From a virus: a stretch of 27,224 nucleotides of DNA. The notes under the pieces are model-generated. The model was not told the origin of the DNA. It worked only from the letters and a program-made list of their open reading frames with translations, and searched no databases. The stretch covers positions 1-27,224 of IMG/VR virus record IMGVR_UViG_3300036770_002476; one strand, 5' to 3'. Positions 5,462 to 19,000 of the stretch are shown here, piece after piece. Position 1 is the first letter of the stretch. The number at the start of each line of letters is the position of its first letter. A program made the position numbers and the translations under genes.

Positions 5462-6550
5462 ATGGCGGTCTCCCTCACCCATACCACCGTCGCCGTTGGC
5501 ACCGATGCCGGGAACGGCGAAATCGCCAAGGCGCAGTGGAACGAACCCCACACGCTGACGATGGCGACGAACAAGCTTTTGGGCCGCGCCACGGCGGGCG
5601 ATGGCGCTGTCGAGGAAATTGACCTGACAGCGGCAGGCCGTGCGCTGCTCGATGACGCGACGGCGGCCGATCAGCGCACTACGCTTGGCGTTGGCATAGG
5701 CGACAGCCCGACATTCACCGGACTGACGCTGACGGGCGTGGGCAACTTCAGCGCAGGCACAGCCCTGCTTCCGTCGCTCATCCCATCCGGCGACACCAAC
5801 ACCGGCATGTGGTTCCCCGCAGCCGACACGATTGCGTTTAGCACGGGCGGCTCTGAAAGGCTCAGGATAACATCAACGGGAGCACCGCAAGTTACGTTCC
5901 AATCCGCAGATGTTTGGTCAAACGGATTGCAGATTAGGAAAAGAGGGACTACAGGCGATGCGAACGCTGCCATTACAACTGGAACAGAAATAGGCTATCA
6001 TTCCTTTTTTGGGTTTGATGGTGCAGCATATCGGCGCGGCGCGTTTGTTCTGGTGACTGCCGCCGAGAACTTTTCCTCTACAAATGCCGGGACGAACTAC
6101 GCAATTTTTACCGCAGCAATAGGTGGGACTGCGACGAGTGAGCGGCTCCGCATTACCGCTAGTGGCAACGTCGGCATTGGCACTAGCGCCCCAGATGCCC
6201 TTCTCTCTGTGAATGGCATCGCTTCCTTCGGGGATGGCGCAGCCGCCACTCCGTCAATCACAAACTTTGGCGACCTCAACACTGGCATGTGGTTTCCTGC
6301 CGCTGACACAATTGCTGCCAGTACAAACGGCACAGAGCGCCTTCGTGTAGATAGCAACGGTAACGTTGTTATTAACACTGCCGCCATTGCAACCACTGCA
6401 ACTGACGGCTTCCTCTACGTGCCGTCATGCGCCGGAACGCCTACCGGAACGCCAACCGCATTCACAGGTCGTGTGCCTATCGTGGTCGATACCACCAACA
6501 ACAAGCTCTATTTCTATTCTGGCGGCGCATGGCGCGATGCAGGGCCGTAA
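5462..6550 (+). CDS. Putative tail fibre or receptor-binding protein
   Basis: This 362-residue protein begins with a fibre-attachment-like region (GNGEIAKAQWNEPHTLTMAT, LLGRATAGDGAVEEIDLT). It continues with shaft modules seen in phage fibres: FTGLTLTGVGNFSAG, ERLRITSTG and SGNVGIGTSAPDALLSVNG. A block centred on NTGMWFPAADTIA followed by ERLR occurs twice, at about 5790-5870 and 6265-6350, implying internal duplication. The part around 5870-6150 is visibly richer in A and T and uses different codons, as expected of a recombined receptor-binding module. No chaperone or collar domain is visible at the C-terminus. It lies three bases after the preceding stop. A fibre this early, between portal and scaffold, is unusual. 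Confidence 0.72.
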   Translation: MAVSLTHTTVAVGTDAGNGEIAKAQWNEPHTLTMATNKLLGRATAGDGAVEEIDLTAAGRALLDDATAADQRTTLGVGIGDSPTFTGLTLTGVGNFSAGTALLPSLIPSGDTNTGMWFPAADTIAFSTGGSERLRITSTGAPQVTFQSADVWSNGLQIRKRGTTGDANAAITTGTEIGYHSFFGFDGAAYRRGAFVLVTAAENFSSTNAGTNYAIFTAAIGGTATSERLRITASGNVGIGTSAPDALLSVNGIASFGDGAAATPSITNFGDLNTGMWFPAADTIAASTNGTERLRVDSNGNVVINTAAIATTATDGFLYVPSCAGTPTGTPTAFTGRVPIVVDTTNNKLYFYSGGAWRDAGP

Positions 6551-8235: not shown

Positions 8236-9312
8236 ATGCCGCCCGAACTGGACAACACCGAGACCGCCGACGAGCTGTCCCTGCGCGATGCGCTGAGCGC
8301 CGCCTTCGACGAGGCCAGCGAGGCCGAAACGCCCGCCGATGACGCCGCCGGTGAGACGGCGCAGGGCGAGACCGCCGAAGACGGCCAGCCGCGCGATGAA
8401 CAGGGCCGCTGGACCAAGGCGCAGCGCGAGCACTTCGAGGCCCAGCAGCGCGAGGAACAGGCGGCCAAGGACGCGGCACAGCAGGGCCAGCAGGAGCAGC
8501 AGCAGGAAGGGCAGGAGCCGCTCCGCCTTGCCCCGCCGCATGGCTGGAGCCCGGCCGCCAAGGCCGCTTACGCCAAGCTGCCGCCCGAGGTGCAGGAGGC
8601 GGTGGCCCGCCGCGAGGTCGAGATCAACAACGGCTTCGCCAAGCTCAAGGACTACAAGGGGCTGGACGAATATGCCGAGATGGCAAAGGCCTCCGGCACC
8701 ACGCTGCGCGAGGCCTTCGACCGCTACAAGGCGGCGGAAGACCTCCTCGACCGCGACTTCCGCGGCGGCGTCATGCAGCTCTGCGAGATGTACGGCGTCC
8801 ACCCGATGCAGTTGGCGCAGGAGTTTGCGGCGCTGTTCCAAGGGCAGGGCGGCCAGCCGCAGCCCGGCCAGCCGCCCGGCGCCCAGCCCGGCGCCGATCC
8901 GCAGGTCGCCTTGCTTTCGCGCGAGCTTGCTGGTATAAAGGATTTCGTCCGTACACTGACCACACGGGAAGAGCAGCGGGAGCGCGAGGGGATCAACACC
9001 TTCGTCCAGCAGTTCGCCCAGGACAAGTTGTACTTCGAGGATGTCCGGCAGGACATGGCCCACCTGATCAGGACAGGGCAGGCCAACGACCTGAACGATG
9101 CCTACGACAAGGCATGCTGGATGAACCCTCAGATCCGCGACCTTCTCATCAAAGAGCGGGCCGCTCCACAGGAAGCCGAAGCCCGCGTCTCAAAAGCGCG
9201 CCGCGCCTCTGGTTCCCTGCCCACCGGAGCGCCCGCAGGCACGACCTCGCCAAGCTCCGCCCATTCAATCCGCGCCGCCCTCGAGGATGCTTGGGGCTCC
9301 GGCGCACTCTAA
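8236..9312 (+). CDS. Putative scaffolding protein
   Basis: This 358-residue protein lies immediately before the major capsid gene. It is highly charged, with an acidic N-terminus (residues about 1-60, rich in Glu, Asp and Ala), a Gln/Glu-rich helical stretch around 65-95, and a mixed helical body. This composition and position are typical of phage scaffolding proteins, which direct coat assembly and then leave the prohead. A Pro/Gln/Gly-rich linker (about 210-225) precedes a helical C-terminal half that ends in a basic Ser/Ala-rich tail, the usual coat-binding region. Sequence identity among scaffolds is low, so the call depends on context. The start follows AGAGGA at 8223-8228. Confidence 0.78.
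   Translation: MPPELDNTETADELSLRDALSAAFDEASEAETPADDAAGETAQGETAEDGQPRDEQGRWTKAQREHFEAQQREEQAAKDAAQQGQQEQQQEGQEPLRLAPPHGWSPAAKAAYAKLPPEVQEAVARREVEINNGFAKLKDYKGLDEYAEMAKASGTTLREAFDRYKAAEDLLDRDFRGGVMQLCEMYGVHPMQLAQEFAALFQGQGGQPQPGQPPGAQPGADPQVALLSRELAGIKDFVRTLTTREEQREREGINTFVQQFAQDKLYFEDVRQDMAHLIRTGQANDLNDAYDKACWMNPQIRDLLIKERAAPQEAEARVSKARRASGSLPTGAPAGTTSPSSAHSIRAALEDAWGSGAL
8911..8939 (+). promoter_or_regulatory. Possible internal promoter ahead of the capsid gene
   Basis: TTGCTT at 8911-8916 and TATAAA at 8934-8939 are separated by exactly 17 bases within the scaffold gene, about 390 bases before the capsid start. The -10 box is 5/6 consensus and stands out in GC-rich coding DNA. The fourth palindromic element follows at 8948-8959. 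It could boost coat protein expression. Confidence 0.4.
8948..8959. promoter_or_regulatory. Palindromic element, copy 4 (TCCGTACACTGA)
   Basis: This matches the repeated element at 11 of 12 positions. It is inside the scaffold gene but nine bases downstream of a TATAAA box, so it again coincides with a predicted transcription start. Confidence 0.35.
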
Positions 9313-9325
9313 GGAGCAGTGACAG

Positions 9326-10294
9326 ATGGCCTCGCCAAATCTGAGCGAAATCATCACCACCACGCTGCGGAACCGGACCGGCAAGCTCGCTGACAACGTC
9401 ACCGACAACAACGCCATCCTGTACCGTCTGAAGCAGCGCGGCAAGGTCAAGCCCGCATCCGGCGGCCGAACGCTGGTGCAGGAACTGGCCTACCAGGAGA
9501 ACTCCACCTTCATGTGGTACTCCGGGTACGACACCCTCGACGTGTCCGCGACCGACGTCATGTCGGCGGCGGAGTTCGACTGGAAGCAGGCGGCGGTCGC
9601 CGTCACCATTTCCGGCCTCGAACAGCTCCAGAACTCCGGCAAGGAGAAGATCCTCGACCTCATGGAAAACCGCATCGACATCGCGGAAAAGACCATGATG
9701 AACAAGATCGCCCTTGGCTGCTATGCCGATGGCACCGGCAACGGCGGCAAGGAGATCGGTGGTCTCCAGCATCTCGTGGCGGACCTGCCGACGTCCGGCA
9801 CGGTGGGCGGCATCAACCGCGCAACGTGGTCGTTCTGGCAGAACCAGTACCGGGACAGCTCGGACAATTCCGTGACGCTTTCGAGCACCACGATCCAGTC
9901 CGAGATGAACATCATGTACACGCGCCTGGTGCGCGGTACGGACCGCCCGGACCTGATCATCACCGACAACACGATCTGGCTGTACTACCTCGCTAGCCTG
10001 CAGAACATCCAGCGCATCACCAACGACAAGATGGCGAGCGCCGGCTTCACGAACCTCAAGTTCATGGACGCCGATGTGGTGCTCGACGGCGGGCAGGGCG
10101 GCAACTGCCCGAGCGCCCACATGTATTTCCTCAACACCGATTACATTCATTTCCGCCCGCACTCGGAGCGGAACATGACCGTGCTCGGCGGGGAGCGCAT
10201 GAACACCAACCAGGACGCCATCGTGAAGCTCATCGGTTGGGCGGGCAACATGACCGCCTCCAACTGCGCGCTTCAGGGCGTGCTCAAGGCTTAA
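9326..10294 (+). CDS. Major capsid protein
   Basis: This 322-residue protein has the best ribosome binding site in the window, AAGGAG at 9311-9316 overlapping the scaffold stop and nine bases before the ATG, as expected for the most abundant virion protein. Recognisable blocks include NLSEIITTTLRNRTGKLADN, GGRTLVQELAYQENSTF, AAEFDWKQAAVAVTISGLEQ and GTVGGINRATWSFWQNQYRD, which I know from coat proteins of alphaproteobacterial podoviruses and prophages. An HK97-type fold is expected from the family's role but cannot be shown here. It forms the icosahedral shell. Neighbours are scaffold upstream and a decoration-like protein downstream. Confidence 0.9.
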   Translation: MASPNLSEIITTTLRNRTGKLADNVTDNNAILYRLKQRGKVKPASGGRTLVQELAYQENSTFMWYSGYDTLDVSATDVMSAAEFDWKQAAVAVTISGLEQLQNSGKEKILDLMENRIDIAEKTMMNKIALGCYADGTGNGGKEIGGLQHLVADLPTSGTVGGINRATWSFWQNQYRDSSDNSVTLSSTTIQSEMNIMYTRLVRGTDRPDLIITDNTIWLYYLASLQNIQRITNDKMASAGFTNLKFMDADVVLDGGQGGNCPSAHMYFLNTDYIHFRPHSERNMTVLGGERMNTNQDAIVKLIGWAGNMTASNCALQGVLKA

Positions 10295-10306
10295 GGAGAG
10301 CAGACA

Positions 10307-10801
10307 ATGACCTTTCGCGTCTCTGATGGCCGCATCGGTATCCAGCCCATCGCGGATACCTCCACGACACAGAACCATCCTCTCGGCACCATCGTGCGGG
10401 CCGTGTCCGTCACGCTGGGCGAGGGTGAGTTCATCTATCTCAAGGGCGTTGCCAACACCGCCGTCGGCAACATCGTCAATTACGACGATGGCTTCCAGAC
10501 GGCGCTGGACTCCTCCGCCGTCGCCGGGCCGTCGCGCCCGCTGGCGGTGGCGATGTCGGCCAACGTCGCTGACCAATACGGCTGGTATCAGATTTCCGGC
10601 CTCGCGGTCGCCAAGAAGGACGCTGCGGTGTCCTTCGCGGGCGGCGCGGGTCTGGGGGCTGGCTCCGGCCTTGCGGTGGCGGTCGCCACCGGCACGGTGA
10701 TCCAGGGTGCGGTGGTCCGCACCGTGGCCTCGGCCAAGTCGGGCGTGACCACGGTGGCCATCGCCATCAACCGTCCGCACGACCCCTCGGACGTCTCGTA
10801 A
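10307..10801 (+). CDS. Putative capsid decoration protein
   Basis: This 164-residue protein follows the coat gene with AAGGAG (10293-10298) overlapping the coat stop. It is predicted to be all beta, rich in Val, Ala and Gly. It includes HPLGTIVRAVSVTLGEGEFI, where a plain strand pattern recurs, and an Ala/Gly-rich hydrophobic part (about 105-125). The sequence pattern and position match small outer-capsid stabilising proteins found after coat genes in many phages. A terminator hairpin follows directly, so coat and decoration close the head block. Decoration is inferred from position and composition; a minor structural role is possible. Confidence 0.68.
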   Translation: MTFRVSDGRIGIQPIADTSTTQNHPLGTIVRAVSVTLGEGEFIYLKGVANTAVGNIVNYDDGFQTALDSSAVAGPSRPLAVAMSANVADQYGWYQISGLAVAKKDAAVSFAGGAGLGAGSGLAVAVATGTVIQGAVVRTVASAKSGVTTVAIAINRPHDPSDVS

Positions 10802-10810
10802 CGACGCATG

Positions 10811-10837
10811 AGGGCGGGGCTCCGGCTCCGCCCTTTC
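10811..10837 (+). terminator. Rho-independent-type terminator after the capsid block
   Basis: The arms at 10811-10820 and 10825-10834 form a 10-bp stem (one G-T wobble) closed by a TCCG tetraloop, followed by TTTCTCCCTCTC. It lies in the 59-base gap after the decoration gene. The T tract is short and broken, so it may be leaky and reduce rather than stop transcription into the tail genes. Confidence 0.65.
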
Positions 10838-10860
10838 TCCCTCTCTCCTGAAGGTTCCCG

Positions 10861-12246
10861 ATGGCGCGCCCGACTTCCACCGTCTACCAGATGGAATATC
10901 AGAACCCGCACGCCACGGCCCCGCTCAAGGTGCCGGTGCTTGTCGTGTGCAACACCTCCGACGAGCAGCTTTTCGCCAACATCAGGACCAATGCCGCCAA
11001 CGGAGCCGAGTGGATCGGCTTCCGCGAGGCGCATGACAGCGTGGCCATCCTCGTGGGCGGCGGCCCGTCGCTGGCCGATCATCTCGACGACATCCGCAGG
11101 CTGGCGCTGGCGGGCGGCGTCATTTTCGCGATGAACGGGGCGGCCACCTTCCTCGACCGCAACGGCATCCGGCCCGGCTATCAGGTGATTGCCGACGCCA
11201 AGCCCGAGACCGCCACGCTCATCGAGCCCCGCGCCATCGCGCACCTGTTCGCCTCCCAGGTTGATCCCAACTGCTTCGCGCTCGTGCCTGGCGCGCTTCT
11301 GTGGCACCTCGAAATGCCCGGTATCGAGGACGCCTTCCCGGAAGAGCGCCGCAAGCGCGGCGGCTATGCCCTGGTGGGCGGCGGCGCGGCCGTGGGCAAT
11401 TCCGCCTGTGCGCTGGCCTATGTCATGGGCTACCGCACCATGCACCTGTTCGGCTACGACAGCTCGCACAAGGGCGAGGCCAGCCACGCCTACGACCAGC
11501 CGATGAACCGCTTTATTCCCACCATCGATGTCGAATGGGCGGGCAAGACGTTCACATCCTCTCTGGCGATGAAGGCGCAGGCCGAGAAATTCATGATCAC
11601 CGGCCAGGCGCTGAAACAGGCGGGGGTCGATCTCCACGTCCACGGCGAAGGGCTCCTGCCCACCATGTGGAACACACCCGTCGAGAACATCACCGAGCGC
11701 GACAAGTACCGCCTGATGTGGCAGCTCGACGCCTACCGCGAGCATGCGCCGGGCGAATACCTCGTGGAACTGTTCCTGCATCATTTGCATCCGGTGGGCC
11801 TCATCATCGATTTTGGCTGCGGCACCGGCCGGGCGGCGCTGGCGCTGGCGAAAAAGGGCCATGACGTGCTCTTGATCGATTTCGCCGACAACTGCCGCGA
11901 CGAGGAGGCCATCGGGCTTCCCTTCCTCGAATGGGATTTGTCCCTGCCGATCCCGGCGCGGGCGGAGTTCGGGCTGTGCACCGACGTCATGGAGCACATT
12001 CCGACCGAGGACGTCGCCAAGGTTCTGGGCAACATTATGGAAAGTGCCCGCACCGTGATGTTCCAGATCTCGACCGTCAAGGACGCCTTCGGGGCGCTGC
12101 TCGGCACCGACCTGCACCTGACCGTCAAGAGCCATGAATGGTGGCTCGCGCATTTCGATTGGATCGATTGCGCCGTCCTGCACCAGCACCGGGGCGAGAA
12201 TGCCTCGATCTTCATCGTCACCCGAAAGGAAAGCCTCAATGCTTGA
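10861..12246 (+). CDS. DUF115 (MptE-like) and SAM methyltransferase fusion
   Basis: This 461-residue protein combines two enzyme-like halves. Residues about 55-240 resemble DUF115/MptE-like proteins (VAILVGGGPSLADHLDDIR, FAMNGAATFLDRNGIRPGYQ, YRTMHLFGYDSSHKGEASHA), a family tied to pterin diphosphokinase or, in bacteria, to flagellin glycosylation. Residues about 300-461 are a class I methyltransferase, with motif I DFGCGTGRAALAL near 317, the acidic motif II region LLIDFADN, and CTDVMEHIP near 374. The protein would bind a sugar-nucleotide- or pterin-like ligand and SAM; the real substrate is unknown. It follows the terminator and opens the tail block with a CTGAAGG ribosome binding site. 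A role in modifying virion or host surface sugars is speculative. Confidence 0.78.
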   Translation: MARPTSTVYQMEYQNPHATAPLKVPVLVVCNTSDEQLFANIRTNAANGAEWIGFREAHDSVAILVGGGPSLADHLDDIRRLALAGGVIFAMNGAATFLDRNGIRPGYQVIADAKPETATLIEPRAIAHLFASQVDPNCFALVPGALLWHLEMPGIEDAFPEERRKRGGYALVGGGAAVGNSACALAYVMGYRTMHLFGYDSSHKGEASHAYDQPMNRFIPTIDVEWAGKTFTSSLAMKAQAEKFMITGQALKQAGVDLHVHGEGLLPTMWNTPVENITERDKYRLMWQLDAYREHAPGEYLVELFLHHLHPVGLIIDFGCGTGRAALALAKKGHDVLLIDFADNCRDEEAIGLPFLEWDLSLPIPARAEFGLCTDVMEHIPTEDVAKVLGNIMESARTVMFQISTVKDAFGALLGTDLHLTVKSHEWWLAHFDWIDCAVLHQHRGENASIFIVTRKESLNA

Positions 12247-12820
12247 TCCTGCCCTGGACACGACCTTTTTCGACGCCGCGCCGCCGCAGCAGCGTGGGCC
12301 TCGGCCTTTGCTGCGCTTCTTCACCGAGCCCGTCGAACTGCCCGGCAAGAGCGCCGAGGAGGGCCGCCCGGTCTATGTCGACCGCGATTTCGTCGGCATC
12401 ACCAACCCCGGCTCGCGCGACGAGGTGGTCAGGCGCGCCGAGGACAAGGCCAGGGAAGACGAGTTCGTGGCGTGGGCCTACAAGAAATGGAAGGCCACCC
12501 AGCAGCAGCCGACCGATGGCACGCCCTTGGAAACCGTGCCGTTCCTCAACAAGAGCCAGGTCTTGGAGCTGAAGGGGGTCGCGATCCACAGCCTTGAGAC
12601 GCTGGCGGACGCCCCGGAGCAGGCGATGCAGCGCATGATGGGCCTGCGCGAACTGAAGAAGAAGGCCGCCGCCTATCTGGCCGCCGCCAAGGACAGCGCA
12701 GTTGTCACCAGGCTGCAGCATGAACTCGACCAGCGGGACGGCAAGATCGCGCTCATGGAGAAGCAGATGGCGGAGATGAACGCCCGCTTCGAGGAACTGT
12801 CCAGGCGGGTGCCGGCATGA
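12239..12820 (+). CDS. Phage protein with C-terminal coiled coil
   Basis: The protein is 193 residues from ATG 12239, which overlaps the previous stop by eight bases; a longer frame from 12134 overlaps much more and I reject it. The first 90 residues hold a motif I associate with small phage proteins (FVGITNPGSRDEVVRRAEDK). A segment at about 105-130, LELKGVAIHSLETLADAP, has the rhythm of a helix-hairpin-helix. The C-terminus (about 150-190) is a clear coiled coil, LQHELDQRDGKIALMEKQMA. No catalytic motif is visible. Location among head-tail joining genes suggests a structural or assembly role. Confidence 0.72.
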   Translation: MLDPALDTTFFDAAPPQQRGPRPLLRFFTEPVELPGKSAEEGRPVYVDRDFVGITNPGSRDEVVRRAEDKAREDEFVAWAYKKWKATQQQPTDGTPLETVPFLNKSQVLELKGVAIHSLETLADAPEQAMQRMMGLRELKKKAAAYLAAAKDSAVVTRLQHELDQRDGKIALMEKQMAEMNARFEELSRRVPA

Positions 12821-13041
12821 ACCGCATCGAGCGCAGCCCGCAGTTCAAGGCCGGACCCCGGTTCTTCCGCGCCGAGGACGGCCAGGACATGTTTGAGCAC
12901 CGCATCGACAGCCGGGCCTGCATCGGCCCGCGCGTGGCGACGAAGCGCGACAAGGAGATCAACCCCGACCTCTGGGCCGAATACCTCGCCCAATGGACCG
13001 CCGAGGAAGACCGCAAGATCAAGCGCCGGGCGAAAGGGTAA
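12817..13041 (+). CDS. Small basic phage protein, function unknown
   Basis: This 74-residue protein starts at an ATG overlapping the preceding stop as ATGA. It contains FKAGPRFFRAEDGQDMFEHR, then ATKRDKEINPDLWAEYLAQW, and a very basic tail (EDRKIKRRAKG). No known domain is recognised. It lies between the coiled-coil protein and the adaptor gene, three bases before the adaptor ATG, so it is coupled to virion assembly genes. The basic tail could contact DNA or nucleic-acid-filled portal, but that is a guess. Confidence 0.68.
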   Translation: MNRIERSPQFKAGPRFFRAEDGQDMFEHRIDSRACIGPRVATKRDKEINPDLWAEYLAQWTAEEDRKIKRRAKG

Positions 13042-13044
13042 GCC

Positions 13045-13749
13045 ATGAAGACGCTGCTGCAGATCGTCCAGCAGGCCTGCCGCGATGTCGGACAGCCCAG
13101 CCCGACGCTGGTGGCCTCGGCCTCCACCGAGACGCCGCTCAGGATGCTGCGGCTCCTCAACAAGGCCGGGCAGCAGCTCATCAAGGACCACAACTGGCAG
13201 GCCCTGACCGACGTCGAGACCTTCACCCCCACCGCCACCCAGGTGCAGGCCTTGCACCCGCCGTCCGACTATGACCGCATGACGCCGCCCAGCCAGATCT
13301 GGGACATCGGCAACAAGCGCCCGCTGGTGGGCCCGCTCGCCGTCGAGAAATGGCTGCGCCTCGTGGTCGATGCCCAGCAGTCGATTGACAAGTATTGGAC
13401 GCTGATCGGCGGCAAGATCAACATCCTGCCGATGCCTGCGACGACAGACAGTTTCGTTTATGCCTACCAGAGCAAAAATTGGGTTTATGCGGCGGACGGC
13501 GCGACGGCCAAGGCGGAGTTCGACGCCGACGACGACACGCCGCGCATCCCGGACGAGCTGCTGATCCTCGAACTCGTCTGGCGCTGGAAACAGTCCATCG
13601 GCATCGACTACGGCGAGGACATGGCGTCCTGCAACCGCATGAAGGAGATGCTCATTGCGGCGGATCGCGGGCCGCGCATCCTGTCGCTGTCGCAACCCTT
13701 CCCCGAAGGCGTGCCGGACGGCTTCTGGCCGGGGACCATCACGCCGTGA
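13045..13749 (+). CDS. Head-tail adaptor (P22 gp4-like)
   Basis: This 234-residue protein begins LLQIVQQACRDVGQPSPTLV and continues with LRMLRLLNKAGQQLIKDHNW. These are the N-terminal helices typical of the P22 gp4-like tail accessory or adaptor family, which forms a ring under the portal and prepares it for the tail hub. The later part has short beta strands (KINILPMPATTDSFVYAYQS) and a helical C-terminus with ELLILELVWRWKQSIG. P22 gp4 itself is 166 residues and has muramidase activity; I see no sign of that here. The stop overlaps the GTG of the HNH gene. Confidence 0.8.
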   Translation: MKTLLQIVQQACRDVGQPSPTLVASASTETPLRMLRLLNKAGQQLIKDHNWQALTDVETFTPTATQVQALHPPSDYDRMTPPSQIWDIGNKRPLVGPLAVEKWLRLVVDAQQSIDKYWTLIGGKINILPMPATTDSFVYAYQSKNWVYAADGATAKAEFDADDDTPRIPDELLILELVWRWKQSIGIDYGEDMASCNRMKEMLIAADRGPRILSLSQPFPEGVPDGFWPGTITP

Positions 13750-14198
13750 GCCGCCCTCCCAAGCCGTTCATGCATTATGTCTCTCCAGAACCAAACAGCG
13801 GGTGCTGGCTCTGGGTGGGGGGCGTGTTCCAAAATGGCTATGGCAACGTGCAATACAAAAGGAAGCCACATCTCGCGCATCGTGTATCATACATGATCCA
13901 CCGTGGTCCCATCCCAAATGGGATGTTTGTCTGCCACAAGTGCGATGTCCCATCGTGCGTAAACCCTGATCATCTGTTTCTCGGCACGCCTGCCGACAAT
14001 ATGCGTGATCGAGATACCAAAGGCCGCGTGGCTGCAGGAGAGTTAAACGGGTTCGCGAAGCTGACGGATGTGCAGGTCCGCGAAATCAGAAATAAACTGG
14101 CTGTGGGCCAGTCGAAGCATAGCCTTTCTCGGCAGTACCAGATCAGCCGCACCCACATTTCAAGGATTGAAAATGGTCAAGTGAGGAAAACAGCATGA
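13746..14198 (+). CDS. HNH homing endonuclease, free-standing
   Basis: This 150-residue protein starts at GTG 13746, which overlaps the adaptor stop as GTGA; a longer frame from 13395 runs inside the adaptor gene and is rejected. The N-terminal half has GCWLWVGG, then HRVSYMIHRGPIPNGMFVCH and CDVPSCVNPDHLFLGTPADN, a classic HNH signature with C63, H64, C66, C71, N73 and H76. The C-terminal half (about 105-148) is a helix-turn-helix (LTDVQVREIRNKL, SLSRQYQISRTHISRIENGQ) for DNA targeting. The gene is richer in A and T than its flanks and splits two tail genes, as expected of a mobile endonuclease. Such enzymes cut phage lacking the gene and spread by repair. Confidence 0.9.
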   Translation: MSRPPKPFMHYVSPEPNSGCWLWVGGVFQNGYGNVQYKRKPHLAHRVSYMIHRGPIPNGMFVCHKCDVPSCVNPDHLFLGTPADNMRDRDTKGRVAAGELNGFAKLTDVQVREIRNKLAVGQSKHSLSRQYQISRTHISRIENGQVRKTA

Positions 14199-15760
14199 GA
14201 AAGGCGCTGAGACAGAGCAGCCGTCAAGCTGTTGCGACACCAAGCATCATCCAAGCACCAACAAAAGGGTGGAGTGCAAATAGCCTGCCCGTCAAAGCAG
14301 AAGAAGGAACTTCCCTGATCCTCGAAAACTGGTTTCCCGAGGCCACCTCGATCCGCCCGCGCAAGGGCTTCACCGAGCAGACCACCGGCATCACCGGCGG
14401 CGTCGAGACCCTGATGCCCTATGTCTCGGGTTCCACCCAGAAGCTGTTCGCGGCAGGCAACGACGCCATCTATGACGTGACCAGCGCCGGGGTTCTGGGT
14501 GCCGCCGTCCAGAGCAGCCTCAATTCGACGAAATTCATCTACACCAACTTCGCCACGGCGGCGGGGCAGTACCTGTTCATGGTCAACGGCGCGGATGCCG
14601 CCCGGCACTATAACGGCTCCTCCTGGGTGCAGCCGGTCATCACCAACGTGACCTCCTCCGACCTGTCTTATGTCGCATCGCACAAGTCGCGGCTGTTCTT
14701 CGTCGAGAAGACCTCGACCACCATCTGGTATCTGCCGGTGGACAGCATCGCCGGGGCCGCCACCGCCTTCGAGGTGGGCTCGCAACTGCGGCGCGGCGGC
14801 TACATCATGGCCATCGCCTCGTGGTCGGTCGATTCCGGCGACGGCATGGATGACCTGTTCGTGATCTGGTCCTCGGAAGGCGAAGTCCTGGTCTATGCCG
14901 GGACCAATCCGTCGAGCGATTACGCCCTTGTCGGCCGCTATTCGACCGGCAACCCCATCGGGGCGCGCTGCCTGTTCCCCATCGGCGGCGACCTCGCCAT
15001 GCTGTCGGAAGACGGGGTTCTCGCCTTGTCCTCGGTGATGCGCTTTGACCGCCTCACCACCAAGGAAAAGGCGCTCTCCGCCAAGATCGTGGACGAGTAC
15101 CGCCGGGTGGTGAAGGGCTATGCGGGCGAGTTCGGCTGGCAGATGGTGACGCTGCCCAAGGCGTCGATGGCGCTGATCAACGTGCCGGGCGACGGCGATG
15201 CCGGGGCCTCGGTGCAGTTCGCCTATAATGTTTCCACCAAGGCGTGGAGCCGGTTCACCGGCATGGACGCCACCTGCTGGGAGTTCTTCGACGGCGAGAT
15301 CTGGTTCGGCACGCCCGCAGGCGGAGTCTACAAGGCCGAGAGCGGCGGCACCGATGACGGGGCCTCGATCACCTGCCGCTGCCTCCCGGCCTTCTCGCAT
15401 CTGGGCGCGCCGGGGCGCACCAAGCACATCAAGCTGATCCAGCCGATGCTGTCCACGGACCTGAGCGAATACGCCTTCGGCCAGGGCTGCGTGGTCAACT
15501 TCCAGATGCCGGGCGTCATCGGCTCGGGCTCGCCCGCCGCCGTTGGGGTCTTCACCTGGGACGTCAGCACCTGGGACGGCGCGGATCTGTGGGCGGGCGA
15601 TCAGGTCTATGACTTCTGGGAGAGCGCCAACGCCATCGGCTACGTGATCTCGCCCTATACCGAGGTGCGGATCGACGCCACCGAGACGCCGGATTTCGAT
15701 TTCAGCCTGATCGGGTGGAACATTCTCCATGAAGCTGGCGGCCTGTCGTTCTCTGCCTGA
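14195..15760 (+). CDS. Tail hub or DNA stabilisation protein (P22 gp10-like)
   Basis: This 521-residue protein follows the adaptor gene. Its sequence is a run of beta strands with repeated aromatic and Gly turns, as in a propeller: NWFPEATSIRPRKGFTEQTT, DAARHYNGSSWVQPVI, SRLFFVEKTSTTIWYLPVDS and LGRYS-like turns. This pattern matches the gp10-like tail hub family, which closes the portal after packaging and carries the spikes. P22 gp10 is 472 residues, so the length is suitable. The start overlaps the HNH stop as ATGA. Its first 35 residues are of lower GC, like the HNH gene, so part of the original 5' end may have been replaced during insertion. Confidence 0.82.
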   Translation: MRKALRQSSRQAVATPSIIQAPTKGWSANSLPVKAEEGTSLILENWFPEATSIRPRKGFTEQTTGITGGVETLMPYVSGSTQKLFAAGNDAIYDVTSAGVLGAAVQSSLNSTKFIYTNFATAAGQYLFMVNGADAARHYNGSSWVQPVITNVTSSDLSYVASHKSRLFFVEKTSTTIWYLPVDSIAGAATAFEVGSQLRRGGYIMAIASWSVDSGDGMDDLFVIWSSEGEVLVYAGTNPSSDYALVGRYSTGNPIGARCLFPIGGDLAMLSEDGVLALSSVMRFDRLTTKEKALSAKIVDEYRRVVKGYAGEFGWQMVTLPKASMALINVPGDGDAGASVQFAYNVSTKAWSRFTGMDATCWEFFDGEIWFGTPAGGVYKAESGGTDDGASITCRCLPAFSHLGAPGRTKHIKLIQPMLSTDLSEYAFGQGCVVNFQMPGVIGSGSPAAVGVFTWDVSTWDGADLWAGDQVYDFWESANAIGYVISPYTEVRIDATETPDFDFSLIGWNILHEAGGLSFSA

Positions 15761-16618: not shown

Positions 16619-19000
16619 GTGCTGAACAAACGCCACATCACGGTGCCCAAGACCCATGACCCCGGCCTTGGGCGGCCCAAGGAGCATCTGGCCTACATCA
16701 ACAAGGCCGAGGCGGAAATGCTCCGTGTGCTGACGGATGGCACGGTCGAGGATGGCCCCAAGGGCATCCCGAGCTACGCCTCCTTCGCGGGCACGCAGGG
16801 CACCGGCTATGCCAGCGCGGCGCGGTCGACCCCGGTGTCGCGCCCGGCGGCCAGCCAGCCGTCGCGGCCCAATTCCGGCCCGACCAGCGCTCCGGTCCGT
16901 ACCCAGCCGTCGGCCAGCGTCAACCGGCCCTCCGACAGCGGCGGCTCGCGGCCTGCCGGTTCGCCCAGCTCAGCCAATGTGAACCGCCCTTCGGACAGCG
17001 GCGGCTCGCGCCCGGCGGGATCGGCGACCGCCCGGCCCTCCGGTGCGCCTGCCGCGCCGGGAGCCAGCCGGGCTGCGGCGGCGTCCTCCGCCCCGGCCAC
17101 GCGGTCGTTGACGCAGCCCGCCAACCGCCCTGCGGCGGCCCCTGTGGCTCCTGGCCGCGCTCCCGGCGTCGGCACCAATGCGCGCGGCCCGAACCCGGCT
17201 GCGGCGGCGGCGATGAACCGGCTGGCGGACCCGGCTCCGACGCCGGGCGCGCCCCTGCGGCCCAGCCAGAACATGCAGCGCCCGGCGCGCCCAGAAGTAG
17301 ACCGGCAGGCCCAGGCCAGTGCCGTGTCACGCGGCCCCGGCGTGCTGACCGGCTACCGTCCCGAGACCATTGCCCGCACCGTGGCGTTCGGCGAGAGCCC
17401 CGCAGGCCTGCGCGCCCCGGCGCTGGCTGGCGATCTCCGCAAGGCGGCGCTTAACGACCGGCAGCTTTTTTCAATGCAGGGGGCCACCCCGGAGCAGCAA
17501 GCGCTGTTGGGGCAGATCGGCTCGTCGGCGCTGCATGTTGCAATGCGGACGGGCCTCGATCCCCGCACCGTGCTGGGACAGGCCATGACCGAAAGCACCA
17601 CCGGCAGGCATGATAGCAAAGTGTCGGCGCTGGCCCGCAACGCCAACAACCTGTTTGGTATCAAGGGCCGTGGCAAGACGGGCGAGAACTGGGACGGCAG
17701 CGTGGTCCGCATGCCGACCAAGGAAGTGTTCAACGGCCAGACCGTGACCCTGCGCGAGCCATTTCGCGCCTATCCGACGCCGAACCAGTCGGTGCTGGAT
17801 TATGGCAACCTGATTGAGCGCCGTTATGCCAATGCCGCCAACGAGCCCACCGTCGAGGGCCAACTCGCGCGCATCCGCAGCGGTGGCTACGCCACCCATC
17901 CCTCGGCGGGCTATGTCCGCATGGGCGTCAGGAATGCCGAGCGCCTGTCGGTGGGGGGCGAGGATGCTTCCGGCACCCAGCTTGCCGCTCCCACAGAGCG
18001 GGCCACGGGCGGTTTCCAGACCGCCTCCGCCGCCGCGCCTGCCCAGCCCGCAGGCCCCGTGCCGCGCCCCGTGCCGCGTCCGTGGACGACGCCGCCCAAG
18101 CCCAATCCCCGCCCGTGGGGCGAGGCCCCGATCCCCCGCGCCCGTCCCGAGGTGCAAGGCCCGCCCCGGCCTCTCGCGGGCGATCCGCGCGTCAGCATGG
18201 CCCTTGGCTCTTATCCGGCCCGCGCTGTTCCCGTACCCACGGCCCGCCCGCCGGTGCAGGGGCCGCCGCGCCCCATGAGCGGCGATCCGCGCGTTTCGAT
18301 GCCGCCGGGCAGCTATCCCGCCGCCGGACGCATGGACAGCCAGGTGATGACGGACCCGCGCATCGGCCTGCCGCCGGGGCGCTATCCCGGCGCGCCGCCG
18401 GTCAAGGACCGCTCGCGGGTGCCTGCCGTCTCCATCGCCATGACCGATCCCCGGGTGACCCTGCCGCCCGGCTCCTATCCGGCGGCAGCCGCTCCGGCGC
18501 GCGGCCTTCCCCTGCGCGGCATTGACGGGCTCACCGGCCTGCCGCCCGGCTATGCCGAGCGCTACGGCCTCGGCGCCAAGCCTGCCGCCCCCGCTGCGCC
18601 GCCCGCCGAAGCCCCTGCCACGCGCGGCTGGCTGGAAGCGGCACAGGAAGGCCTTGGCGGCTTCCAGACCGCCGCCACCCAGAAGGTGGCCGAGGTCCAG
18701 CAGCAGATCGCCGACGCGCAGGAGAAATACGGCCCGATCACGCCTGAAAAGATCAAGCTGGCGCTGCTGTGGAACCGGCTGACCAGCGGTGATGGCAAGC
18801 CGTCATACGATTTCCGCGACACCACCAATGGCCGCGACGCGCCCGCACCGCGCCGCCGCATCGCCTTCCCGGCGGCTGGCACCGCCGCACCAGAACCGGT
18901 TCCGCCCGCCGTAGCACCGGTGGACATGAGCTATTTCACCAACGTCATGAGCCGCGAGGAGGCTTTGCGCCGCCTGCTCGGAGAGGAGTGGTCCGCATGA
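16619..19000 (+). CDS. Virion-associated glucosaminidase-domain protein
   Basis: This 793-residue protein starts at GTG 16619. Residues about 60-280 are low-complexity, rich in Ala, Pro, Arg and Ser, with a duplicated NRPSDSGGSRPAG. Residues about 290-440 form a glucosaminidase-type domain: HVAMRTGLDPRTVLGQAMTE with a likely catalytic Glu, NANNLFGIKG, then FRAYPTPNQSVLDYGNLIE and YATHPSAGYV. This family cuts peptidoglycan glycan strands. The C-terminal part has four units of the DPRVSMPPGSYP type (about 515-625) and a final helical region. In the tail and ejection block it most likely opens the cell wall during DNA entry. Start evidence is weak (no strong Shine-Dalgarno). Confidence 0.8.
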   Translation: MLNKRHITVPKTHDPGLGRPKEHLAYINKAEAEMLRVLTDGTVEDGPKGIPSYASFAGTQGTGYASAARSTPVSRPAASQPSRPNSGPTSAPVRTQPSASVNRPSDSGGSRPAGSPSSANVNRPSDSGGSRPAGSATARPSGAPAAPGASRAAAASSAPATRSLTQPANRPAAAPVAPGRAPGVGTNARGPNPAAAAAMNRLADPAPTPGAPLRPSQNMQRPARPEVDRQAQASAVSRGPGVLTGYRPETIARTVAFGESPAGLRAPALAGDLRKAALNDRQLFSMQGATPEQQALLGQIGSSALHVAMRTGLDPRTVLGQAMTESTTGRHDSKVSALARNANNLFGIKGRGKTGENWDGSVVRMPTKEVFNGQTVTLREPFRAYPTPNQSVLDYGNLIERRYANAANEPTVEGQLARIRSGGYATHPSAGYVRMGVRNAERLSVGGEDASGTQLAAPTERATGGFQTASAAAPAQPAGPVPRPVPRPWTTPPKPNPRPWGEAPIPRARPEVQGPPRPLAGDPRVSMALGSYPARAVPVPTARPPVQGPPRPMSGDPRVSMPPGSYPAAGRMDSQVMTDPRIGLPPGRYPGAPPVKDRSRVPAVSIAMTDPRVTLPPGSYPAAAAPARGLPLRGIDGLTGLPPGYAERYGLGAKPAAPAAPPAEAPATRGWLEAAQEGLGGFQTAATQKVAEVQQQIADAQEKYGPITPEKIKLALLWNRLTSGDGKPSYDFRDTTNGRDAPAPRRRIAFPAAGTAAPEPVPPAVAPVDMSYFTNVMSREEALRRLLGEEWSA
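16922..17020 (+). repeat. Duplicated 39-base coding unit
   Basis: Two copies (16922-16960 and 16982-17020), offset by 60 bases, encode NRPSDSGGSRPAG in the disordered N-terminal part of the glucosaminidase protein. The copies differ at a few third positions. Confidence 0.8.
18160..18485 (+). repeat. Four degenerate DPR-PPGSYP coding repeats
   Basis: Units of about 20-30 residues share GDPRVSM, TDPRIGL or TDPRVTL followed by a PPG(S/R)YP turn. They alternate with Arg/Pro/Ala linkers and are in frame. They suggest an extended, possibly partner-binding arm after the glucosaminidase domain. Confidence 0.75.

Follow-up and report, generated by a model that had tools for sequence, protein, structure and literature searches.

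A fused enzyme gene among head and tail genes

The locus at 10861..12246 (+ strand) of a 27,224-base stretch of viral DNA (IMG/VR virus record IMGVR_UViG_3300036770_002476, the whole of which is referred to here as the window) raises the question of what two enzyme-like halves joined in one phage protein are doing inside a structural operon. The open reading frame has exact coordinates, from a start ATG at 10861 to a stop TGA at 12246, and encodes a DUF115 - class I methyltransferase fusion of 461 aa. A sequence-only reading of the window had described two halves with intact motifs located between head and tail genes, and both points were borne out, as each Pfam domain scored above its cut-off and the motifs were near-invariant in 65 relatives.

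The N-terminal half (aa 33-271; 10957..11673, + strand) matched PF01973, MptE-like/DUF115, over residues 37-203 (E 1.7e-17; 64.2 bits vs a gathering cut-off of 34.6; model positions 3-168 of 171). Near-invariant positions in this half were G66/G68/S70, N92, D112, S132, D200 and H209, including the nucleotide-binding-type motif GGGPS (aa 66-70; 11056..11070), in which G66, G68 and S70 were conserved in at least 90% of sequences, and the D200...H209 motif (GYDSSH...SHAY; 11458..11487). The C-terminal half (aa 277-456; 11689..12228) matched Methyltransf_23/25/11 over residues 293-419 (E 1.6e-6 to 1.1e-4, above the Pfam cut-off) and its near-invariant positions were D317-x-G-x-GTG323, D340 and D375/E378, with D317, G319, G321, T322 and G323 invariant in the SAM-binding motif DFGCGTG (aa 317-323; 11809..11829). 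An NCBIfam search gave methyltransferase matches below threshold, a weak PseD match (E 0.004) and no equivalog at cut-off. The AlphaFold2 model built from the 65 relatives was confident throughout (mean pLDDT 93, pTM 0.86), and no membrane segment was found in the protein (highest 19-residue hydropathy 1.46).

The head-tail operon has the order terminase, portal, 'scaffold', capsid, decoration gene, fusion, phrog_20268 gene, adaptor and amidase, where the 'scaffold' (8236-9312) is named from its position and has a weak virion-structural match. The fusion thus lies 3' of the capsid and virion structural genes and 5' of the phrog_20268 and adaptor genes. The major capsid protein gene (9326..10294, + strand; phrog_9953, E 9e-117, and NF033394) is a backbone gene and is followed by a gene for a 164-aa virion structural protein (10307..10801, + strand; phrog_29386), which from its position is probably a decoration protein and is called so below. 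Downstream, the backbone gene phrog_20268 (12239..12820, + strand) starts 8 bases inside the end of the fusion, and the adaptor gene follows (PF24175, phrog_6013). The gap that separates the decoration gene from the fusion contains a G+C-rich hairpin (10810..10835, + strand). Its stem is 11 bp long and the whole stretch has -25.8 kcal/mol (z -2.1), and a similar hairpin was found 3' of the decoration gene in a fusion-less relative (L202). Despite the hairpin of the window, consensus scans detected no terminator-like site in this gap, nor did they give a promoter-like site in 9000-14300. None of the scanned genes of the 27-kb window was recognised as one for sugar-donor biosynthesis.

Other genes of the window included a tail-fibre-like protein gene (5462-6550; phrog_18345, E 3e-31) between the portal and capsid genes, an unusual location for a fibre, close to where the G+C content is lower (0.55). 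Three wall-degrading proteins were encoded, an amidase-type protein (14195-15760), a 793-aa protein with a glucosaminidase domain (16619-19000) and a phage lysozyme (25231-25950).

Conservation of the fusion

A scan of IMG/VR returned 576 relatives of the fusion, a large set of environmental phages. Both halves were in one frame in all of the best 80 of these (44-72% identity), a few being cut by contig ends, and where flanks were long enough the same order of capsid, decoration, fusion, phrog_20268, adaptor and amidase genes was retained with occasional extra genes inserted, so that the fusion was kept at the same gene position as the sequence-only reading had asked to be checked. For informative pairs, dN/dS was estimated at ~0.05-0.3 in each half, indicating purifying selection. 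The methyltransferase half was conserved as strongly as the DUF115 half with the peaks at the motifs, and residues of catalytic type, whose loss across relatives would have spoken against an enzyme, were kept. A chance reading frame or an assembly artefact is excluded because of the recurrence of the fusion in these 80 relatives, the dN/dS values and the kept gene order. The locus was also present on four bacterial MAG contigs, on one of which (L088, 649 kb, Isosphaeraceae) it is internal and prophage-like. Among isolate phages, tblastn against 50,697 genomes recovered a methyltransferase-only gene, in ctUtU524, and in no case the DUF115-methyltransferase fusion.

Several related loci carried additional DUF115 genes. 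Stand-alone paralogues were located directly 3' of the fusion or within ~750 bases of it (L045:9305-10132, L055:4898-5551, L058:7472-8176, L061:3188-3892, L075:2540-3232), were 27-33% identical to the N-terminal half of the fusion where measured, and possibly serve a second sugar-transfer step. The methyltransferase half alone, with CTDVMEH and DFxxNxRD motifs, was scattered over many bacterial genomes (L092-L119) such as those of Lysobacter, Rhodobacteraceae and Seleniivibrio.

Identity of the two halves

The methyltransferase half has the Rossmann-like fold of class I SAM methyltransferases and matched many class I enzymes at Z 17-19, these structural matches covering many substrate types. 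The Foldseek list for the whole model was dominated by methyltransferases, and the DUF115 half was therefore examined through a structure comparison, a sequence profile and the model of a GT8-DUF115 relative. Its top match among solved structures was the Maf flagellin glycosyltransferase 5mu5 (Z 22.2, 221 aligned residues, rmsd 3.2 A), the alignment being confined to residues 244-502 of 5mu5. The profile, made from 63 diverse DUF115 domains of fusion and relative loci, scored Maf at E 4.6e-16 and the Methanocaldococcus 6-hydroxymethylpterin pyrophosphokinase (8sd5) at E 1.2e-5. Eight DUF115 positions were invariant in all 63 sequences, among them S70, D112, D200 and H209, and the His of the D200...H209 motif aligned with a Maf His. 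The DUF115 half is therefore more similar to Maf than to this pterin enzyme. In the kinase, a DLDGD stretch is probably metal-binding and activity-defining; it corresponds to D112-A-K-P-E in the fusion and D-A-K-x-E in DUF115 domains, where the first Asp alone is kept and is invariant.

The pfam01973 domain of Maf has been described as resembling the sialyltransferase Cst-II (PMC11339370). The match of the profile to Cst-II (1ro8) was short and local (E 0.29; 42 residues, aa 175-216). Some of the relatives' DUF115 domains matched phrog_4603, 'alpha-2,3-sialyltransferase', at E 1e-4 to 9e-3, a match that was not reached by the fusion protein of the window.

Alternative occupants of the slot

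Loci fetched with capsid genes as bait were surveyed for the gene occupying the slot of the fusion. The fusion proved to be optional, as most of these relatives had no such gene between the capsid/decoration and phrog_20268 genes, and where the slot was filled its contents varied. One occupant was a GT8-DUF115 protein (L210), the model of which matched glycogenin/LgtC at Z 16.9 (aa 1-199), Maf at Z 21.2 and the pterin kinase 8sd5 at Z 15.7 and which itself matched phrog_1962, 'glycosyltransferase'. Others were GT8-DUF115-Methyltransf_24 (L251, L332), a reversed methyltransferase-DUF115 order (L265), a hexapeptide transferase gene ahead of GT-DUF115 (L271) and DUF115 alone (L320, L340), while an FkbM methyltransferase gene adjoined the DUF115 gene at three loci (L210, L214, L219). 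In L348 (4411-6108), and also L349 and L350, the slot held DUF115 with a different C-terminal domain of ~280 residues. Outside this phage group, reversed methyltransferase-DUF115 fusions were found in L090, on a contig where no phage gene was recognised, and in L091, where the gene starts 52 bases 3' of a capsid gene from a different family (phrog_267). Phage ctUtU524 has separate methyltransferase-only and DUF115-like genes directly 3' of an unrelated phrog_247 capsid gene.

Glycan synthesis on the virion is suggested mainly because DUF115 was repeatedly paired with glycosyltransferases or methyltransferases beside capsid genes. Based on the fold, a likeness that favours Maf over the pterin kinase, and the glycosyltransferase partners in the slot, we infer that the DUF115 half is a glycosyl transfer enzyme.

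In two relatives a small gene (L058:5589-6170, L064:4660-5184) separates the fusion from the decoration gene. Its motifs looked sulfotransferase-like by eye, a reading that was set aside as neither family nor PDB matches supported it. HNH-type endonuclease genes recurred next to or within the decoration-fusion region and might aid mobility of the cassette. They included one in the window (13752-14198; HNH_3, E 2e-14) and one in L210 (1529-1981; HNH_3, E 6e-14), with others identified by eye and lacking a Pfam match (L063:7370-8020; L271:7099-7872 and 8432-8914).

Co-inheritance with the decoration gene

The fusion follows the decoration gene and not the phage backbone, which was unexpected, and this coupling to the upstream gene had been missed by the sequence-only reading. 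In one relative (L004) the capsid and phrog_20268 proteins were 35% and 33% identical to those of the window but the decoration protein was 76% and the fusion 61% identical. The opposite was seen in L202, where the capsid (84%), phrog_20268 protein (69%) and amidase (71%) were similar to those of the window, the decoration protein was 43% identical and the fusion was absent. Across 50 dereplicated loci, fusion distances correlated at 0.72 with the decoration protein, 0.21 with the capsid and 0.39 with the phrog_20268 gene, and capsid and adaptor distances correlated with each other at 0.84. The partial correlation of fusion and decoration distances was 0.70 and was reached in 0 of 2000 permutations; the partial correlation with the downstream gene was 0.33, so the fusion somewhat tracks this gene as well, and that with the capsid was ~ -0.1 with the others held.

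Trees gave the same result. With the 111 shared rows, a single change on the decoration tree was enough to account for which loci have the fusion, as compared to 5 on the capsid, 9 on the phrog_20268 and 7 on the adaptor tree. Fusion carriers were grouped on the decoration-protein tree with an SH-aLRT of 98, and a single capsid clade for all carriers was rejected in a 50-row subset (AU p 1e-64). This co-inheritance may partly reflect hitch-hiking of neighbours. Adjacency alone is weakened as a cause because the borders of capsid with decoration gene and of fusion with phrog_20268, where the genes are just as close, were broken far more often.

Three codons of the decoration gene differed between loci with and without the fusion. 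K104 (10616..10618, + strand) was Lys in 63 of 63 sequences with the fusion and 4 of 61 without, T128 (10688..10690, + strand) was Ser/Thr in 100% with and 2% without, and S142 (10730..10732, + strand) was Ser/Thr in 63 of 63 with and 2 of 57 without. Glycine 121, another apparently fusion-specific residue, was rejected as an alignment artefact. In a reverse survey, loci were fetched by the decoration gene and those already known were removed, leaving 90 that were resolved. A DUF115 gene was next to the decoration gene in 12 of the 12 loci, several of them near-copies, that had the K104, Ser/Thr128 and Ser/Thr142 signature, and was lacking in 71 of the 78 that did not, with the remaining 7 adjoining a DUF115 gene (Fisher p 2e-10, a value not corrected for relatedness). 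L348-L350 were considered as exceptions to this pairing and dismissed, since each holds a DUF115 fusion with another C-terminal domain. Exchange between Ser and Thr that keeps the hydroxyl is the pattern that would be expected of an O-linked acceptor. T128 and S142 are nonetheless a lead and not proof, because the signature residues mark one partner-protein clade and are not independent of descent.

Proposed function and alternatives

We favour, with moderate confidence, an explanation in which the fusion is a Maf-like glycosyltransferase and methyltransferase acting on a virion protein, likely the upstream 164-aa protein, and in which the two genes move together as a cassette. The decoration protein is the likely target because the fusion is inherited together with it. 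Under this explanation a cytoplasmic bifunctional enzyme would be made late in infection, its DUF115 half would take a sugar from a host-made nucleotide donor, by analogy a nonulosonic acid activated with CMP, and attach it to Ser/Thr residues in a virion protein, and its C-terminal half would carry out SAM-dependent methylation of that sugar or of the same protein. The most likely acceptor would be the 164-aa protein (10307-10801), with T128 and S142 as candidate sites, modified before or during virion assembly. Speculatively, the hairpin at 10810..10835 may reduce enzyme output relative to the structural protein. The decoration gene and fusion would move between backbones as a unit into the fixed slot behind the capsid gene, and concealment or protection of the virion by its glycan coat, or an altered adsorption, would be fitting benefits. 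More tentatively, the decoration protein and its dedicated glycosyltransferase-methyltransferase might form a mobile two-gene module with an interchangeable enzyme half (methyltransferase, GT8, FkbM or others), by which the virion glycan could be diversified and a whole modified coat exchanged.

The same chemistry could be directed at another virion target such as the capsid or tail, co-inheritance then arising because the genes are neighbours and recombination preferentially breaks just 3' of the capsid gene. In mycobacteriophages Che8 and Rita the glycan is reported to be borne by the capsid protein (PMC11256854), and the enzyme genes of L091 and ctUtU524 lie directly 3' of different capsid genes (phrog_267 and phrog_247). 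We regard this as unlikely, given that fusion and capsid distances were uncorrelated once the others were held and that the same enzyme clade occurs with a 35%-identical capsid in L004, where the upstream protein is still 76% identical. Less probable again is an enzyme of lysogenic conversion or superinfection exclusion that glycosylates and methylates a surface glycan or flagellin of the host. Glycosyltransferase morons are common (phrog_1962 category), and Maf itself is reported to act on flagellin in the cytoplasm, before export (PMC4065374). Placement inside a late structural operon with an 8-base overlap with the next gene and no promoter-like site in 9000-14300, the lack of a membrane segment and inheritance with a virion protein all argue against a host target, and of the two targets offered by the sequence-only reading, virion or host surface, it is therefore the virion that is favoured.

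Two further alternatives are very improbable. A pterin pyrophosphokinase or other small-molecule kinase joined to a methyltransferase, for synthesis of a cofactor or modified nucleotide, would agree with the Pfam name of PF01973, with the profile match to the Methanocaldococcus enzyme (E 1.2e-5) and with the alignment of the GT8-DUF115 relative to the pterin kinase (Z 15.7), the fold being common to both. Maf nevertheless scored above the kinase in both structure and profile comparisons, DLDGD is kept at its first aspartate only and the slot partners are glycosyltransferases and other glycan enzymes, so that the action on pterins that had been mentioned for DUF115 relatives is disfavoured. Equally hard to credit is a structural or assembly protein that has retained the fold and, without enzymatic activity, chaperones the virion protein encoded upstream. 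Such a role would suit the strict pairing of the fusion with a single virion protein, but conservation is highest at the SAM motif and at the residues of the DUF115 pocket, and the swapped methyltransferase types and domain orders fit enzymes rather than a chaperone. The combined role in sugar transfer and methylation that the sequence-only reading had put forward is supported as a prediction.

If correct, this explanation would extend sugar-coated virions beyond mycobacteriophages to hundreds of IMG/VR contigs from many samples, each with a dedicated glycosylation and methylation unit. A phage gene that is widespread and at present annotated as 'pterin kinase-like' would gain a function, with an acceptor protein and candidate residues named for it. 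There would also be a new Maf-type enzyme acting on a small capsid protein, and a clear example of joint transfer of enzyme and substrate between viruses.

Comparison with known systems

The idea of a virion modified with sugar is not in itself new, because mycobacteriophage glycosyltransferases and, in the databases, a glycosyltransferase-and-methyltransferase protein of a giant virus (Catovirus) are already known, and the novelty that the sequence-only reading gave to the combined role was in this respect overstated. Mycobacteriophages Che8 and Rita use phage-encoded glycosyltransferases to modify their own virions (Freeman et al. 2023, as cited in PMC11256854 and PMC12691614). In the present phages, too, genes of glycosyltransferase type are linked to virion genes, through the fixed slot and co-inheritance. 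The mycobacteriophage glycosyltransferases are different enzymes and in the F1 phage Maravista are encoded near the 3' end of the genome (PMC11256854). Neither a DUF115-methyltransferase fusion nor an acceptor-enzyme cassette features in the descriptions of mycobacteriophages consulted in PMC11256854 and PMC12691614.

Uncultured Caudovirales 'MptE-like' proteins (A0A6J7XC21, A0A6J5PVH5, A0A6J5L5C1) were the top BFVD structural matches and have a homologous DUF115 domain within longer proteins, their annotation in UniProt/BFVD being the Pfam name only. To our knowledge, no analysis of the function, slot or partners of these proteins exists. A literature search on DUF115 or MptE-like together with phage, its coverage leaving out most subscription papers, returned no study of the family, and mention of DUF115 in a BREX paper proved to be a string match to DUF1156.

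With the MptE pterin pyrophosphokinase (8sd5) the fusion shares the PF01973 family and fold, although the match is weaker than that to Maf and DLDGD is missing beyond its first Asp. Likeness to the GT42 sialyltransferases (Cst-II, phrog_4603) is too weak for membership of that family. Maf of Magnetospirillum magneticum (5mu5) shares with the fusion the DUF115/PF01973 core, GxGPS and G-x-D with a following His and, by analogy, may share the modification of a structural protein in the cytoplasm. The fusion differs in having ~30 residues before the PF01973 core, the N-terminal Rossmann-like and C-terminal helical domains of Maf being missing, and in having a SAM methyltransferase and a phage head operon setting with no flagellin in sight. 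The DUF115-methyltransferase enzyme type and the substrate-enzyme cassette both seem to be new.
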